Origin: Gemmatimonadota bacterium
Lineage (GTDB): Bacteria; Gemmatimonadota; Gemmatimonadetes; JACCXV01; JAHWKZ01
NCBI GenBank assembly: GCA_025937815.1
Contig: JAICQP010000009.1
Span: 1-33,422 of the forward strand
Reading direction: 5' to 3'
DNA: 33,422 bases
Shown in pieces: positions 1 through 18,357 of the stretch. Positions within the stretch are counted from its first letter, which is position 1. Every line of letters begins with the position of its first letter. The notes below the pieces were generated by a model. That model searched no databases. It worked only from the letters and a program-made list of their open reading frames with translations, and was not told the origin of the DNA. The translations under genes and the position numbers were made by a program.

Positions 1-96
1 CTCTACGAGCCGCGCGGATTCCTCAACAGCATGCACAGTTTCCTCTGGCAAAGCCGGCGCCAGCCCGGCCTCAACGGCGTTTCACAGGGGGATTGA
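1..96 (+). CDS. C-terminal fragment of an unidentified protein
   Basis: An open frame enters the window at base 1 and ends at TGA 94-96, giving the last 31 residues of a protein (begins LYEPRGFLNS, ends NGVSQGD). I do not recognise a family from so little sequence. It runs in the same direction as the radical SAM gene that follows. A promoter-like sequence overlaps its stop codon, so the next gene probably has its own transcription start. It could also be a chance open frame, because only 32 codons are visible. Confidence 0.4.
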   Translation, partial: LYEPRGFLNSMHSFLWQSRRQPGLNGVSQGD

Positions 97-122
97 CCAC
101 GTCCATACTCGGCAAGTAGGAT
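93..122 (+). promoter_or_regulatory. Putative sigma70-type promoter of the radical SAM gene
   Basis: TTGACC (93-98) is followed by an 18-base spacer and TAGGAT (117-122). Transcription would start near 129, leaving a leader of about 28 bases before the ATG at 157. The -10 box runs into a perfect palindrome at 120-138. Inferred from consensus only. Confidence 0.45.
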
Positions 123-138
123 TCGGCTGAACCGAATC
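120..138. promoter_or_regulatory. Perfect palindrome over the -10/start region (operator or leader hairpin)
   Basis: GATTCGG (120-126) and CCGAATC (132-138) form a perfect 7-bp dyad around the 5-base centre CTGAA. It covers the end of the putative -10 box and the predicted transcription start of the radical SAM gene. That is the usual position of a repressor operator. It could instead form a small hairpin at the 5' end of the mRNA. No T-run follows, so it is not an intrinsic terminator. Confidence 0.4.
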
Positions 139-156
139 AGTGGGGAGGGGGTTCTC

Positions 157-2322
157 ATGATCAAGGTCAACAGCCAGGTGGTGGACCCGGCATCACGATC
201 GTCACTCGCGAATGGCAACGGTCACGCCCCGCTATCCGCGGAAGCCTTCGACACCTCTTCGTTCGCGATCCCCGACAGGCGCCTCAATCCAAACGGCGAC
301 GCCAGCGTCGGGCTCGGCACGCGGGCCCTCAGGGCCATGGACTGGGGCCTCACCAAGATCGCCAAGGTCGCCTTCGACGGCGTCCAGCTCGTCAACCGAT
401 ACCGTCCCAATCCCTCCTTCACGCCGAACTGGAGCGACAAGCCGCTCCTCAAATCATGGGAGAAGTCCAAGCCCCGTCTAGGCTGGCCGCGTGAGACCGA
501 CTCGCTCTGCCCTAAGTGCGTCATCGAGGCGCGCAAGCGGATCATCGAGGGCGAGGAGGATTACAAGGTCCTGATCCACGAGAAGGTGGGCGAGATCAAG
601 GCCCAGATCGTAGAGCGCGACGGTCAGGTGTGGATGGTCAAGGAGTGCCCCGAACACGGCCGCTTCGAGGACCTGATGGCGGTCGACTCCCGATTCCTGG
701 AATGGATCGAAGCGAACTTCCCTGGCCGGGATTTGCGCGCGCACAACGACGGCGGACTGCACGACCATGGCTCGTCCACGATCAAGCACGGCCGCGGGTC
801 CGTGCTCACCGTGGATCTGACGAACCGCTGCAACATGATGTGCGATCCGTGCTTCATGGACGCCAACCAGGTGGGCTTCGTCCACGAGCTCGAGTGGGAA
901 GAGATCCAGGAGATCCTCGACAACGCGCTCGAGATCAAGCCGCGCCGCCAGATGTCGGTCCAGTTCTCGGGAGGCGAGCCGACTCTCTCCCCGCACTTCC
1001 TCCGGGCGGTGAAGTACGCGCGCGACATCGGATACAACTCCGTTCAGGCCGCCACCAACGGCATCGAGTTCGCAAAGAGCGCCGAGTTCGCCCAGCAGGC
1101 GGCCGAGGCAGGACTCCGCTTCGTCTATCTGCAATTCGACGGTATCGGCAACGACGCCAACAGCCATCGCAAGGTGGGCAACCTGTTCGACGTCAAGCTC
1201 AAGGCGATAGACAACCTGTACAACGCAGGCGTCCAGATCGTGCTGGTCACCACGCTCGTGAACACGGTCAACAACGATCAGGTCGGGCCGATCATCCGGT
1301 TCGCTCTCGACAACCCGAAGAAGATCGCGTTCATCGCGTTCCAGCCCGTGTCGTTCACCGGCCGGGACGACGAGATCACCGACGAGCGCCGGATGCGGCA
1401 GCGGTATACGCTGTCTCACATGGCGCGCGACGTGAAGGATCAGCTCGGGGTGACCGAGCCGTTGCGCGACTGGTTCCCGATTTCCCTGATGGGACCGTTC
1501 GCCGACTTCGCGGACATGGTGCACGGACCGACGGCCGAATGGGGCCAGACGAGCTGCGGCTGTCATCCCAATTGCGGCGTCGGGACAGCGCTGATGATCA
1601 ACAAGAACACCAGGGAGTTCCGCCCGGTCCCGGAGTTCCTGAACATCCCGGGTCTGATCGCCGACATCCAGAAGATCACTGATGCCAACCGGGGCAAGTG
1701 GATCTCCAACGCCATGATGGGACTGGCCCTGCTGAAGAACTACTCCCCGTACAAGGCTCCTCCGAGCCTTACGCTGATCGACATCTTCAAGAAGTTCGAC
1801 AAGTCGTTCGGTCTCACGGGCAAGGACTACGGCTCGCTAGGTCCCGACGGTGCGTGGGAACGCCGGAAGGATCCTTGGAACTTCCTGTTCGTGGCCGGCA
1901 TGTGGTTCCAGGACCTCTTCAATTACGACTTCCGGCGGACGGAGATGTGCATCATCCCCTACGCGACTCAGGAAGGGGAGATTTCTTTCTGCGCCTACAA
2001 CACCGGGCACGGGTGGCGGAACATCATCGAGAACATGCACAAGAACGCCACCGTGGCGGATTGGTACAAGCAGAAGGGGCGTCACGAGATCTTCGCCGGC
2101 GGCAAGGAAGTGCCGCTGGCGAACTACGACCATGCGCTGCAGGTCGACACCGAGGACGCCGCTCGTGTACGGGATCGCGGCGAGGGTCCGCAGAACGCGC
2201 ACGAGGAGCGACTGGCCGCAAAGAAGGCCGCCCGCGAAGCGCAGATGGTCCGCGAGTACTACGAGAAGATGGTGCTGAAGAAGAAGTCGGACGAGCGGGC
2301 GCTGGTCCAGATCGACCTGTAG
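157..2322 (+). CDS. Radical SAM enzyme resembling tetraether/membrane-spanning lipid synthase (Tes-like)
   Basis: This 721-aa protein carries the radical SAM cluster motif CNMMCDPC (C225, C229, C232) followed by GGEP at 272-275, so it should cleave S-adenosylmethionine to a 5'-deoxyadenosyl radical. Before the core are CPKC (C118, C121) and CPEHG (C164), which look like part of a rubredoxin-type metal site. After it come SCGCHPNCG (C467, C469, C473) and C598/C612 in MCIIPYA...FCAYN, suited to auxiliary Fe-S clusters. This order is what I recall for archaeal Tes (MJ0619 class), which joins lipid chain ends to make membrane-spanning lipids. That product is inference for this bacterium. About 110 residues precede the first cysteine pair, and the last 60 or so are charged and helical. 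A good Shine-Dalgarno (GGAGGGGG) fixes the ATG. Another MoaA/PqqE-like reaction is possible. Radical SAM identity is near certain, lipid role about even. Confidence 0.85.
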   Translation: MIKVNSQVVDPASRSSLANGNGHAPLSAEAFDTSSFAIPDRRLNPNGDASVGLGTRALRAMDWGLTKIAKVAFDGVQLVNRYRPNPSFTPNWSDKPLLKSWEKSKPRLGWPRETDSLCPKCVIEARKRIIEGEEDYKVLIHEKVGEIKAQIVERDGQVWMVKECPEHGRFEDLMAVDSRFLEWIEANFPGRDLRAHNDGGLHDHGSSTIKHGRGSVLTVDLTNRCNMMCDPCFMDANQVGFVHELEWEEIQEILDNALEIKPRRQMSVQFSGGEPTLSPHFLRAVKYARDIGYNSVQAATNGIEFAKSAEFAQQAAEAGLRFVYLQFDGIGNDANSHRKVGNLFDVKLKAIDNLYNAGVQIVLVTTLVNTVNNDQVGPIIRFALDNPKKIAFIAFQPVSFTGRDDEITDERRMRQRYTLSHMARDVKDQLGVTEPLRDWFPISLMGPFADFADMVHGPTAEWGQTSCGCHPNCGVGTALMINKNTREFRPVPEFLNIPGLIADIQKITDANRGKWISNAMMGLALLKNYSPYKAPPSLTLIDIFKKFDKSFGLTGKDYGSLGPDGAWERRKDPWNFLFVAGMWFQDLFNYDFRRTEMCIIPYATQEGEISFCAYNTGHGWRNIIENMHKNATVADWYKQKGRHEIFAGGKEVPLANYDHALQVDTEDAARVRDRGEGPQNAHEERLAAKKAAREAQMVREYYEKMVLKKKSDERALVQIDL

Positions 2323-2492: not shown

Positions 2493-3089
2493 CTAGCTGT
2501 AGAAGGGGTTGGCGCCGGCGGCGTGGTCGGTCGTATCGACGACCCGCTCGATCTCGGGCAGGAGCTCCTTCAGGCGCGTCTCGATCCCCTGCTTGAGGGT
2601 GACGTCCACGAGGCCGCAGCCGTGACAGCCCCCGCCGAAGCTCAGATAGACCACACCCTCCTCCACTCCCGCCAGCTCGACGCGTCCACCGTGAGCCGCG
2701 ACCGCGGGATTGATCTCGCTGTCCAGGAGACGCCGGACCTTCTCGGCGGTGGTTCCGATCAGGTCGGCGCGGGCACCCGAGGGGATCGTCGGGGAAGGTG
2801 GAGGATTGGGGTTCTCGAACCGGAACCCGCTCTCGAGCAGGGTCTCGCGGTAGTCGAGGCGCGAGCCCCGCAGCCAGCCCGCGCTCTCGCGGTCCAACAC
2901 TATGCGGAAGCTCCCTTCGTCGAGAACGAGGTCGCTATCGGAGAGCTCGTCTTCCGCCATGGCGGCGAGCCTGTACTGGAACCCGGCGCGGCCAGGACGA
3001 GCCTCTATCCGCAGATGGTCTCGCGGTGGTGAGGCCCGCTCCAGCGCAGCCCGGATCTTCTCTCGCGCGACGGGAGTGAGCTCGAGCAC
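2493..3089 (-). CDS. nfuA: NfuA-like Fe-S carrier (degenerate A-type domain plus NifU C-terminal domain)
   Basis: The 198-aa product probably carries and delivers [4Fe-4S] clusters to apo-enzymes in the cytoplasm. Residues 1 to about 90 look like an A-type (IscA/HesB) domain without the cluster cysteines. Residues about 110-185 are a NifU-type domain with the CxxC pair in GGGCHGCG (C155, C158). This is the NfuA architecture. I chose the GTG start at 3089 because GAGGAGG lies just upstream and the protein then opens with VLELTPVAREKI, as expected for the family. An open frame continues 35 codons further upstream but is low-complexity and has no such site. The gene points toward the radical SAM gene, which by its cysteine count would need several clusters. 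That functional link is inference. Confidence 0.85.
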   Translation of the reverse strand: MLELTPVAREKIRAALERASPPRDHLRIEARPGRAGFQYRLAAMAEDELSDSDLVLDEGSFRIVLDRESAGWLRGSRLDYRETLLESGFRFENPNPPPSPTIPSGARADLIGTTAEKVRRLLDSEINPAVAAHGGRVELAGVEEGVVYLSFGGGCHGCGLVDVTLKQGIETRLKELLPEIERVVDTTDHAAGANPFYS

Positions 3090-3109
3090 GGCGACCTCCT
3101 CGGGGTGCG

Positions 3110-3138
3110 ATTGTAGTGGCGTGGGGGACGTTCGGCAA
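3110..3138 (-). promoter_or_regulatory. Putative promoter of the NfuA-like gene
   Basis: On the minus strand TTGCCG (3133-3138) and TACAAT (3110-3115) are separated by exactly 17 bases. Transcription would start near 3103, giving a leader of about 14 bases that holds the GAGGAGG ribosome site. Consensus match only. Confidence 0.5.
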
Positions 3139-3172
3139 ACGACTTTCGGCTGGAAGGCCGGCCCCCGCTGGC

Positions 3173-3201
3173 TTGATGAACCCCCTGAAATCAAATAACT
3201 T
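3173..3201 (+). promoter_or_regulatory. Putative promoter of hldE, nearly leaderless
   Basis: TTGATG (3173-3178), a 17-base spacer and TAACTT (3196-3201) place the transcription start around 3208, about three bases before the ATG at 3211. No Shine-Dalgarno sequence is visible before that ATG. The mRNA would be leaderless or almost so. Confidence 0.5.
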
Positions 3202-12008: not shown

Positions 12009-12709
12009 AGTTGGAGGCCGAGCGGAACGCGCTGCCCGGGGAGCGGGGAGAACCCCGGCTGCTACCCGTCACGGACCTCGTCCGGTGGCAGGACGCGTAC
12101 GTCGTCGAATGGCATCGCGACACTCGCAGCGCGGAGACGCGGCCGGAGGATCTCGGATGGTTTCCAGGCCCGCCTTCGCCGGAGCTGGGAGCGGCGATCG
12201 GCCGCGAGCATCTGACCAACGTGCGGCTTTGGCACGAGGAAGACGAGGCTCGGCGGCCGGACGTCAACGACGACGTGATCGCCGGCGTCAAGCGCCGCAT
12301 CGACCGGCTCAACCAGCACCGAAACGACCTGATAGAAACGATCGACGAGGCCATGACGTCCGTCCTGGAAGCGGCCGGAGTCCGGCCGCGCCCGGACAGC
12401 CGGCTTCACTCGGAGACGCCGGGCGCGATCATCGATCGCCTGTCGATCCTCGCGCTCAAGATCTACCACATGCGGGAAGAGGCCGAGCGCACAGACGCCG
12501 CCGCGACCCATCGCACCGTCTGCGCGGAGCGGTTGGGCATCCTCGAACGGCAGCGGGCCGATCTGGCGGGTTGCCTGCGGGCTCTCTGCGACGAGCTCCT
12601 CTCCGGCGCGGCAACGTTCCGGACGTACCGCCAGTTCAAGATGTACAACGATCCCGAAACGAACCCCGCCGTGCGCGCGTCCCGGCGCGGGTCCGAGGCC
12701 GCGCCATGA
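12005..12709 (+). CDS. DUF4254 family protein
   Basis: The function is unknown. The 234-aa protein has the features I recall for DUF4254: LWHEEDEARR (75-84), LNQHRNDLIE (102-111), SETPGAIIDRLSILALKIYHM-type block at 136-156 and QFKMYNDPETNP (210-221). It looks wholly helical, with many charged residues and no signal peptide or membrane segment, so it is probably cytoplasmic. The ATG overlaps the stop of the Wzi-like gene (ATGA), and the next gene overlaps its own stop the same way. From memory the family often lies near glycosyltransferase or surface polysaccharide genes, which fits here. The conserved histidine and acidic residues might bind metal or substrate, but that is speculation. Confidence 0.85.
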   Translation: MKLEAERNALPGERGEPRLLPVTDLVRWQDAYVVEWHRDTRSAETRPEDLGWFPGPPSPELGAAIGREHLTNVRLWHEEDEARRPDVNDDVIAGVKRRIDRLNQHRNDLIETIDEAMTSVLEAAGVRPRPDSRLHSETPGAIIDRLSILALKIYHMREEAERTDAAATHRTVCAERLGILERQRADLAGCLRALCDELLSGAATFRTYRQFKMYNDPETNPAVRASRRGSEAAP

Positions 12710-13686
12710 GCGCGCCCAGGATCGCACACGCGGCGGTGATCGCCGCCATCGCCTCCGCGGGCCCGACGGCCTGCAATCCCCGGATCGGGGAGTTCGAGGA
12801 GCGGGGGGATCGGTACAGCGCCCAGGGGGCATATGCGGACGCACTCGTCGAGTACGAGCTGGCGCTCGAGGAAGCAGACGGCGGGGCTCCCGGAGACCTG
12901 CACATGAAGGCCGGGGCCCTGGCGCTCCGTTCGAAGAGCTTCAGCGACGCGAGCCGCCACTTCGCCGAGCTCCTCGAGGAGGATTCCTCGTACCGGGATC
13001 GCGTGGCCGCGCTATACAACCTGCATGCCCAGCGCTGGCGGGCGGCGGGCGATACGTTCGCGGCCGTCCAGGCTGTCCAGTGGCTGGTGGAGAGCGACTC
13101 GACGGTCAACCTCGGGCCGCTGTACTTCCTGCTCGGCGACGCTGCCTACGCGCGGCCCGACTACGACGCCGCGATACAGGCCTACCTGCTCGGACTTGCG
13201 CGCGCGGGAGGGCAGGCCTCGCCCGAGGTCTATGCGCGATTGGGCGAGGCGTTCGAGCGTAAACGGCAGTGCGCGACCGCCCTCGAGTACTACCAGCGGT
13301 ATCTCGAGGCGGATTCCACCGCTGCGGCCGGCAACGCGCGCTATCGCTACGGGACGTGTGCGTTCCGCATGGCGGAGCGGGCGTTCAAGGGCGAGGACTT
13401 CGACGCAGCGAGGGAGTACATCGACATCGTCATCCGCAACGGTGAGCCAGTGAGTCAGCTCGACGATGCCGAGCTCATGCTGGCGCGGATCCACGAATGG
13501 GACGGGAATCGCGAAGCCGCGATGGACGCCTACAGGCGAATAGCGTCGCGCACCCAGGGGGGCCAGTCGCGAGCCGGCCTCGAGGCGTATCGGCGGTACA
13601 AGCAACTCGAGTTCGGCCTGCCCCTGCGTTCCGCGGAGCGAGCGCGGGCCGAAGAAGAGCGGACCGCCGGCGGGGCCGACCGGTGA
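12706..13686 (+). CDS. TPR-repeat envelope protein, possible lipoprotein
   Basis: This 326-aa protein starts with a hydrophobic signal-like segment (residues about 5-22). A cysteine follows at position 23 in GPTAC, an imperfect lipobox because proline is at -3. The rest consists of tetratricopeptide-type helical pairs, for example YSAQGAYADALVEYELALEEA, DAAYARPDYDAAIQAYLLGL and RQCATALEYYQRYLEADS-like segments. It should act as a periplasmic or membrane-anchored protein-protein scaffold. It overlaps DUF4254 by ATGA and the BamD-like gene by GTGA, so the three are co-translated. The C-terminus is charged (ERARAEEERTAGGADR). No specific partner can be named from sequence. Confidence 0.8.
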   Translation: MSAPRIAHAAVIAAIASAGPTACNPRIGEFEERGDRYSAQGAYADALVEYELALEEADGGAPGDLHMKAGALALRSKSFSDASRHFAELLEEDSSYRDRVAALYNLHAQRWRAAGDTFAAVQAVQWLVESDSTVNLGPLYFLLGDAAYARPDYDAAIQAYLLGLARAGGQASPEVYARLGEAFERKRQCATALEYYQRYLEADSTAAAGNARYRYGTCAFRMAERAFKGEDFDAAREYIDIVIRNGEPVSQLDDAELMLARIHEWDGNREAAMDAYRRIASRTQGGQSRAGLEAYRRYKQLEFGLPLRSAERARAEEERTAGGADR

Positions 13687-14474
13687 GGCGCCTGAGCATC
13701 CTCCTGACGCTGGCCCTGTGGTCCGCGGGTTGCGCCTCCACACAGGAGACCACCGTCCTTCCCCCAGACGAGCAGTTCGATCGCGCGCAGCAGGAGTTCG
13801 CCGACGGAGACATCCGCGAGGCGATATCGCACTTCCAGACCTTCGCCTTCAACTATCCGCAGGACCCTCGCGTGCCCGAGGCCCGCTGGATGACCGCGCA
13901 GGGATATTACGCCGTCGAGGATTGGGCCACGGCGGCGCAGGAGTATTTCAACTACCAACGCGACTATCCGCGGGACGAGCGCGCAGCGGAAGCTCTCTTC
14001 CAGGCCGGCCGCGCGTACCAGCAGATGTCCCTGCGACCCGAGCTCGATCAGCGCGAGACCGAGCGCGCGGTGAACGCTTACGACCGCGTCATCGTCGAAT
14101 ATCCGCGCAGCGAGTTCGTGGAAGAGGCGCGGACGAGGAAGGCGCAGCTCCGCGACAAGCTCGCCGAGAAGGTGTTCCTGAACGCGGAGTTCTACTTCGA
14201 CAACGAGAACTTCTCCGCCAGCGAGATCTACCTGACCGACCTCATCGCGATGTACACCGATACCTCGTGGATTCCGGCCGGGTATGCCTTGCTGGCGCGG
14301 ACGAAGTGCCAGCAAGGGCTGGGGGACCGGGCGTCCGAGGTGTATGCCCGATTGCGGGAGAACTATCCCGATTCGCAGGCCGCCCGGGAGGTGGTGGGCG
14401 AGCTGCCGGAGCGGTGCAGGACGACGCAGGCGGCGTCCGATGGCGACGCCCCCGAGCCGACGAGCGGGCGCTGA
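13683..14474 (+). CDS. bamD: BamD-like outer-membrane assembly lipoprotein
   Basis: BamD is the essential lipoprotein partner of BamA in inserting beta-barrels into the outer membrane. The 263-aa product has a lipoprotein signal with WSAGC and acyl-cysteine C17. It then has five TPR-like units with the BamD pattern of AISHFQTFAFNYPQDPRVPEA, AAQEYFNYQRDYPRDERAAEA and a later LAEKVFLNAEFYFDNENFSA block. The length matches BamD (about 245-270 aa). The GTG start lies in the stop of the TPR gene. Because it follows a predicted outer-membrane barrel and a second TPR protein, it could be either the housekeeping BamD or a paralogue tied to capsule assembly. A YbgF/CpoB-like role is less likely. Confidence 0.8.
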   Translation: MRRLSILLTLALWSAGCASTQETTVLPPDEQFDRAQQEFADGDIREAISHFQTFAFNYPQDPRVPEARWMTAQGYYAVEDWATAAQEYFNYQRDYPRDERAAEALFQAGRAYQQMSLRPELDQRETERAVNAYDRVIVEYPRSEFVEEARTRKAQLRDKLAEKVFLNAEFYFDNENFSASEIYLTDLIAMYTDTSWIPAGYALLARTKCQQGLGDRASEVYARLRENYPDSQAAREVVGELPERCRTTQAASDGDAPEPTSGR

Positions 14475-14493
14475 GCGCCGGGGTGAGGACGGG

Positions 14494-15111
14494 GTGAGGA
14501 AGGGGATCCTGGGCGGGACGTTCAACCCGCCGCACATCGCTCACCTGATCGTGGCCCAGGAAGTGCGAGAAGCTATGGACCTCGACGCAGTCATTCTCAT
14601 CCCGACGAGCGTGCATGCGTTCAAGGGCGCGCCATCCGCCGCCCCGCGCCACCGGGCGGCGATGACGGAGCTGGCCGTCGCGGGAGATCCGGGTCTCGCC
14701 GTGGACCGGATCGAGATCCAGCGCGGCGGCGTCTCGTACACCGTAGAGACGCTGCGCGCTCTCCGCGAGCGGGAGCCCGAGACCGACTGGACGTTGATCC
14801 TCGGAGGGGACAACCTTGAGGAGCTGGCGCAGTGGCGAGAGGCCGACACCCTGCCCGAGCTGGCCAGTGTCGTGGTGACGACCCGCGCCGGCCTGGCGGC
14901 TCCGGAGCGCCTGCCGTTCGAGGGCCGCTGCACGCTCATCGACGTGCCGTCGCTGGAGGTGTCATCGACCGCCATCCGCGGGCGCGTGGCTCGCGGTCGG
15001 TCGATCCGCTACTGGGTTCCGCCAGCCGTGGAAGCGTACATCCGGGAGCACGACCTGTACCGGGAGGCCGTGCCCGCGGGGTCCATTGAAAAGGCGCCGC
15101 CCAGGGGTTAG
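14494..15111 (+). CDS. nadD: Nicotinate-nucleotide adenylyltransferase
   Basis: NadD adenylates nicotinate mononucleotide to deamido-NAD in NAD biosynthesis. The 205-aa protein has the nucleotidyltransferase motif GGTFNPPHIAHL (7-18), GGDNLEEL (104-111) and the C-terminal SSTAIR (157-162) of the HIGH/ISSTxxR superfamily, followed by a typical PPAVEAYIREHDLY. The GTG at 14494 puts the first strand directly at the N-terminus and has GGTGAGGA just upstream. It starts 19 bases after the BamD-like gene. The promoter for secA lies over its last codons. Confidence 0.93.
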   Translation: MRKGILGGTFNPPHIAHLIVAQEVREAMDLDAVILIPTSVHAFKGAPSAAPRHRAAMTELAVAGDPGLAVDRIEIQRGGVSYTVETLRALREREPETDWTLILGGDNLEELAQWREADTLPELASVVVTTRAGLAAPERLPFEGRCTLIDVPSLEVSSTAIRGRVARGRSIRYWVPPAVEAYIREHDLYREAVPAGSIEKAPPRG

Positions 15112-15114
15112 ATT
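15086..15114 (+). promoter_or_regulatory. Putative promoter of secA
   Basis: TTGAAA (15086-15091), a 17-base spacer and TAGATT (15109-15114) form a good sigma70-type match overlapping the end of nadD. Transcription would start near 15121, giving a leader of about 105 bases before the GTG. I see no convincing hairpin, small ORF or riboswitch in that leader (15112-15225). Confidence 0.5.
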
Positions 15115-15225
15115 GTTTTCCCTCTGCCGGTTGACGCCCCCCCGACCCATGCACTGGACATTCGCTAGCGGATCGGCATCTCGTCGGCGACGACGCCCGA
15201 CGATTTTTCTCGGAGAACGATAATC

Positions 15226-18357
<3,132 letters not shown>

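Follow-up and report, generated by a model that had tools for sequence, protein, structure and literature searches.

A Tes-superfamily radical SAM enzyme of acidobacterial type, with an NfuA-like neighbour, in a Gemmatimonadota family: a candidate maker of iso-diabolic-type lipids

The closest described relatives of the protein studied here are the archaeal Tes/GDGT-MAS enzymes (MJ0619, MA_1486; structures 7TOL and 7TOM; profile NF045702). According to the description of the Methanocaldococcus jannaschii enzyme (MjTes), Tes bonds a substrate carbon to the sulfur of an auxiliary cluster, and the C-terminal cluster is required for its chemistry, the roles of the other metal centres being unclear (PMC9433317). 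Bacterial homologues of Tes have also been published, and a role in membrane-spanning lipids was proposed for them in 2022 (PMC8941075) and later repeated (PMC11868695, PMC10087280); as presented in PMC11868695, this role is so far a proposal only, the function being untried. From what these reports describe, the homologues of Zeng et al. 2022, Halamka et al. 2022 and the Black Sea survey of 2025, for which brGDGT or other membrane-spanning lipids were proposed as the product, very likely include the acidobacterial type considered below; for the Edaphobacter aggregans homologue a value of 32% to MA_1486 is reported. Mss, the proven bacterial synthase of membrane-spanning lipids (Sahonero-Canavesi et al. 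2022), compared here by its description, is a radical SAM enzyme that couples fatty acyl tails, as we propose for the present protein, and it is said to have a catalytic architecture in common with Tes (PMC13274423). A zinc ribbon and a radical SAM core are also common to TrsS (NF045646) and our protein.

The window, i.e. the whole stretch of 33,422 nucleotides that was analysed, belongs to a Gemmatimonadota genome of 2.9 Mb that is 94% complete. The initial annotation had described in it a reading frame with a radical SAM core, the cysteine motifs CPKC, CPEHG and SCGCHPNCG and the further cysteines C598 and C612. The frame is genuine, with exactly the same coordinates and 721 codons from an ATG, and all of these motifs were found in it, as was CX3CX2C (Table 1). 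The other genes of the window are ordinary (HldE-like, UDP-sugar enzymes, Wzi, BamD-like, SecA, Rho-like, RadC, RelA/SpoT, UvrB, TsaE, AccD, Mur ligase, HisS), the Wzi and BamD-like genes being consistent with a probable diderm host, and none of the genes in the window that adjoin the Tes-like gene belongs to lipid metabolism.

Table 1. Coordinates in the window of the Tes-like gene, its functional sites and its neighbours
Feature	Position	Strand	Remarks
3' end of upstream radical SAM/SPASM protein	1..96	+	last 31 codons and stop; remainder on contig C249
Tes-superfamily radical SAM enzyme	157..2322	+	ATG start, 721 aa; profile, sequence and fold matches
Helix before the catalytic body, residues 53-80	313..396	+	pLDDT ~74-92; alignment, hydrophobic moment
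Rubredoxin-like site C118, C121, C164, H167 (MjTes C9, C12, C33, H36)	508..657	+	
Site of lost N-terminal [4Fe4S] cluster, residues 191-215	727..801	+	MjTes C73/C77/C80 deleted; H202, H204 invariant
Radical SAM motif C225-X3-C229-X2-C232	829..852	+	
C467 and C469 (extra, invariant) and C473 (MjTes C338)	1555..1575	+	C473 a putative C-terminal cluster ligand
M582 (MjTes Met439)	1900..1902	+	labile C-terminal cluster ligand; 82/82
C598, Y602 (MjTes Tyr459, catalytic), C612	1948..1992	+	82/82 each; C598 and C612 putative cluster ligands
NfuA-like Fe-S carrier (A-type domain and NifU-type domain)	2493..3194	-	conserved part 2493-3101

Among the NCBIfam models the protein matched Tes (NF045702) best, with 326.8 bits (E 2e-97) over residues 114-629, a score below the curated cut-off of 450 bits; the same was found in nine and in twelve further genomes that were scored. 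TrsS (NF045646) came second with 226 bits, below its own cut-off of 490 bits, and the MoaA (69 bits), NirJ and PqqE profiles were all far behind Tes. The Pfam matches were Radical_SAM and the HMPTM zinc ribbon (Zn_ribbon_HMPTM), and the closest PDB entry by sequence was the M. jannaschii GDGT-MAS/Tes (7TOL, E 2e-67). An AlphaFold2 model built from 31 sequences of the protein's own locus (pTM 0.78, mean pLDDT 70.6) retrieved 7TOM as the best Foldseek match (E 3.6e-26, target TM 0.79, 555 columns), followed by MoaA at 4e-7. Profile, sequence and fold agree in placing Tes first, well ahead of the other radical SAM families, so that the best match to a different family, which would have refuted the initial annotation, was not seen.

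The protein, which is 28% identical to archaeal Tes when the two folds are aligned, has in common with it the fold, radical SAM motif and rubredoxin-like site, together with the C-terminal cluster cysteines, the SAM-contact residues, Met439 and Tyr459; it differs by the loss of the N-terminal [4Fe4S] ligands, two added invariant cysteines, an N-terminal helix extension and a charged C-terminal tail. Because the cluster-binding loops of the model are of low confidence, the metal-site assignments rest on alignment, in which 82 orthologous loci were compared at the ligands and catalytic residues named for MjTes in PMC9433317 (L004 and L084 probably represent a single genome). The eleven cysteines of the protein (118, 121, 164, 225, 229, 232, 467, 469, 473, 598 and 612) are all invariant across these loci, except C121 (81/82). 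The rubredoxin-like C-X2-C-X20-C-X2-H site is kept, with a longer gap between the cysteine pair and the third cysteine. The radical SAM motif, the C-terminal cysteines C473, C598 and C612, and the equivalents of Met439 and Tyr459, two residues that the initial annotation did not mention, are conserved in every locus, and the SAM-contact residues Q268, S271, T273 and R275 in at least 81 of the 82. From conservation and position, and as far as the description of MjTes goes, its C338, C455 and C470 would be the three C-terminal cluster ligands.

The order of cysteines had been likened to that of archaeal Tes, which holds for most sites but not for the archaeal CX3CX2C...H of the N-terminal [4Fe4S] cluster. 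The cysteines of this auxiliary cluster (MjTes C73/C77/C80) are deleted in 82/82 loci and in 3/3 proteins of a second paralogous group (group 2, see below); their equivalents are present in all six canonical Tes proteins of Gemmatimonadota and in 3/4 TrsS-like proteins. In their place stands a conserved HxHG segment whose H202 and H204 are invariant (82/82), H204 being aligned with H83 of MjTes, which we take to be the presumed fourth ligand of the N-terminal cluster. C467 and C469 are invariant additions, the latter occurring also in canonical bacterial Tes. Since MjTes depends on its C-terminal cluster for chemistry, its other centres having unclear roles, an enzyme of the acidobacterial type should remain capable of coupling carbons despite its missing N-terminal cluster. 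With a score below the curated cut-off and one of the Tes clusters missing, the protein is therefore a variant of the Tes superfamily and not an archaeal Tes, so that the Tes-like reading of the initial annotation stands at the level of the superfamily but not at that of the curated family.

The ~110 residues that precede the rubredoxin-like site are a genuine extension, an equivalent segment being found throughout the clade, and both this extension and the charged tail do distinguish the protein from archaeal Tes, as had been suggested from the sequence. In the AlphaFold2 model residues 1-50 are predicted to be disordered and residues 53-80 form a confident helix, whose equivalent was found in all clade members inspected and is absent from MjTes. 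This predicted helix is possibly amphipathic and might bind the membrane.

The best 80 loci in named genomes, at ~65-76% identity, are labelled Acidobacteria or taxa within them, except one labelled Gemmatimonadetes, and a relative was found in 169/297 sampled Acidobacteriota genomes (E up to 1e-30). They form two paralogous groups, group 1 being ~57-80% and group 2 ~52-56% identical to the window protein. Both groups occur together in many Acidobacteria (L161, L162, L179 and others), and the two acidobacterial paralogues could make different products. In Gemmatimonadota, 16/298 genomes match the Tes model (E up to 1e-40); within this phylum the type found in the window is limited to the host family (f1), and group 2 to two other genera. 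The group-2 genes of Gemmatimonadota adjoin or lie near a gene for a B12-binding radical SAM protein resembling HpnR (L110:5088-6632, L112:12468-14012, L111:5970-7709); the match to HpnR, a hopanoid methylase, reached 326 bits at L110, below the cut-off, and this neighbour might methylate lipid tails. Six Gemmatimonadota genomes of another family (f11; L093-L098) have a canonical Tes that passes the cut-off, with 564-606 bits. In one of them (G041), a Ger/PlsA-like gene with two BcrAD_BadFG matches and DUF2229 lies two genes downstream of Tes (L114:9301-10938, 12130-15228), and the two genes are a candidate brGDGT pathway in Gemmatimonadota. TrsS-like proteins occur in scattered Gemmatimonadota (L104-L108). 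For the acidobacterial Tes-like genes, no universal neighbour was found; their neighbour clusters are confined to sub-lineages and include nfuA and erpA/hesB, a second acidobacterial clade having an ErpA/HesB gene ~1.2 kb downstream of the Tes-like gene.

In trees, the host family nests inside group 1 of Acidobacteria, with an SH-aLRT of 99 in the first tree and a bootstrap of 100 and SH-aLRT of 98 in the second, and a tree uniting it with the group-2 Gemmatimonadota was rejected (AU p=0.0015). SecA, encoded on the same contig and used as a control, shares 57-67% identity with proteins of the host class and ~50-52% (best or main segment) with those of Acidobacteria, which suggests vertical behaviour. 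We conclude from these comparisons that the Gemmatimonadota family gained its Tes-like gene by transfer from Acidobacteria. A contig of acidobacterial origin misplaced in a Gemmatimonadota bin would also give a protein nested inside Acidobacteria; such contamination is extremely unlikely because the linked SecA sides with the host class, and against it also stand the presence of the gene in four f1 genomes at 80-91% identity with the same neighbour and the exact 141-base overlap by which contig C249 joins the window.

Directly downstream of the Tes-like gene, tail to tail, lies a gene for an NfuA-like protein that scores 117 bits against TIGR03341, below the cut-off. The host protein is 47-58% identical to acidobacterial copies, most of which lie beside tes-like genes, and only 33-44% identical to the resident full-length NfuA of Gemmatimonadota. 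In seven acidobacterial genomes, placed by the Tes tree within or close to the host's sister clade, an nfuA copy (47-52%) is found 250-325 bp upstream of the tes-like gene in divergent orientation. The NfuA tree separates host and Acidobacteria from resident Gemmatimonadota copies, two of which it includes, at 100/100. Since the gene order is divergent in the donors and convergent in the host, the simplest reading, although not proven, is that the tes-like gene and nfuA apparently moved jointly and were then rearranged. In E. coli, NfuA restores the auxiliary cluster of lipoyl synthase during turnover (PMC9585516), and Tes bonds carbon to the sulfur of an auxiliary cluster; it is therefore plausible, by analogy, that the NfuA-like protein supplies or repairs the Fe-S clusters of the Tes-like enzyme.

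Upstream, the window opens within a radical SAM/SPASM gene: the final bases of the reverse complement of G000:C249 are identical to window positions 1-141, of which 1-93 hold the last codons. This gene also stands directly upstream of the Tes-like gene in four other f1 genomes (G001-G004), as far as their contigs reach; L109:11478-12647 and L113:12477-13730 are further loci of it in the host family. In the host phylum the pair was found in 2/298 sampled genomes, both of f1. That it was part of the transferred unit is unsupported, as a relative of the SPASM protein occurs in just 3/199 Acidobacteriota genomes, at 34-39% identity. Its identification as the GMGT synthase Gms, judged by description, was not adopted either: it has 389 aa in G002, and published Gms homologues had to exceed 420 aa and to carry a six-helix N-terminal domain.

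We consider it probable that the window encodes an acidobacterial-type enzyme of the Tes superfamily that makes an ester-bound lipid of the iso-diabolic type and is served by the NfuA-like protein, both genes having been acquired from Acidobacteria. The enzyme would remove a hydrogen at the terminal carbon of an iso-branched acyl tail, park the substrate carbon on its C-terminal auxiliary [4Fe4S] cluster and join it to a second tail radical, its Fe-S clusters being supplied or repaired by the NfuA-like neighbour. In ester-linked phospholipids this would yield a dicarboxylic chain that spans the membrane and is of the type of iso-diabolic acid. The family, the kept catalytic residues, the missing N-terminal ligands, the transfer and the linkage to nfuA follow from the comparisons above, while the substrate, the product and the role of NfuA are proposed. 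A search for DUF2229, the marker of Ger/PlsA, found none in four f1 genomes and none in most acidobacterial carriers tested, so that a tetraether is unsupported in the host and a product held by ester bonds, such as iso-diabolic acid, would be likelier. Moreover, named Chloracidobacterium genomes have no other full-length Tes homologue than this type, and iso-diabolic acid is described among the main fatty acids of Chloracidobacterium (PMC12816986) and from acidobacterial subdivisions 1, 3, 4 and 6 (PMC13274423). Its expected precursor, iso-C15:0, is abundant in Acidobacteria bearing iso-diabolic acid (PMC11354219) and in a cultured genus of Gemmatimonadota (PMC11651109). Taken together, the DUF2229 result, the Chloracidobacterium pattern, the reported subdivisions and the abundance of iso-C15:0 point to an iso-diabolic ester as the most likely product. 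As counter-evidence, Solibacter usitatus has Tes homologues and is described as having undetectable iso-diabolic acid (PMC10087280); thus, the presence of a Tes-family gene does not map simply to this lipid. The score below the curated Tes cut-off and the lack of lipid-metabolism genes beside the Tes-like gene also weigh against the proposal.

Other products have to be weighed against this one. One alternative, put forward for Solibacter usitatus, is that the enzyme turns diether lipids into true branched tetraethers (brGDGT). In its favour, brGDGT are reported from some Acidobacteria that have Tes homologues (PMC10087280, PMC8941075), MjTes takes both ester and ether lipids, and one carrier, G465, does have DUF2229. 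We regard this as rather unlikely, since DUF2229 was not seen in the f1 genomes searched or in most carriers tested and since, within the host phylum, Ger/PlsA goes with the canonical Tes of f11 instead. No greater chance is given to a Tes-fold radical SAM enzyme acting on another hydrophobic substrate or in another reaction (tail methylation, cyclisation or cross-linking at another carbon). The missed Tes cut-off, the lost N-terminal cluster and the two extra cysteines near the catalytic cluster would suit such an enzyme, and the adjoining radical SAM/SPASM gene of the host family suggests more lipid or peptide chemistry, but every catalytic residue identified for carbon-carbon coupling in MjTes is invariant.

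A TrsS-like or pterin-methylase-like protein with no lipid role seems very unlikely. The matches to Zn_ribbon_HMPTM and to TrsS (226 bits) and the former naming of MJ0619 as a pterin methylase would speak for it. However, the Tes model spans the whole catalytic part and the best TrsS stretch mainly the core, and, as described in PMC9433317, the pterin assignment of MJ0619 has been refuted. Unlike the window protein, the TrsS-like proteins of Gemmatimonadota keep the N-terminal cluster cysteines (3/4 aligned) and lack the Tes tyrosine (Ile in 4/4), the methionine (3/4) and most of the C-terminal cysteine ligands. The preferred reading thus remains the coupling of iso-branched acyl tails into an ester-bound lipid of the iso-diabolic type.

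To our knowledge, and supplements and subscription papers aside, the main-text literature does not describe that the N-terminal cluster is systematically lost, that the gene is linked to nfuA or that it was transferred to Gemmatimonadota. Bacterial branched membrane-spanning lipids serve as climate thermometers, but it is poorly established which organisms and enzymes make them. The acidobacterial type can be recognised by a signature in which no CX3CX2C precedes the radical SAM core, the segments HxHG[ST]S and SCxCHPNC are present, and Met and Tyr are kept. If this type makes iso-diabolic acid, the signature would let producers be recognised in genome sequences and told apart from archaeal-type Tes; the type is also a natural test of the role of the N-terminal cluster of Tes. 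More tentatively, and with somewhat less than even confidence, we suggest that this branch of the Tes superfamily, which has lost its N-terminal surface cluster and is widespread in Acidobacteria, many of them oxygen-living, and in one lineage provided with a dedicated NfuA, might be the long-sought iso-diabolic acid synthase, and that enzyme and carrier moved together to a Gemmatimonadota family whose production of membrane-spanning lipids would so far have gone unnoticed. If this is true, Gemmatimonadota would be a possible source of such lipids besides Acidobacteria.
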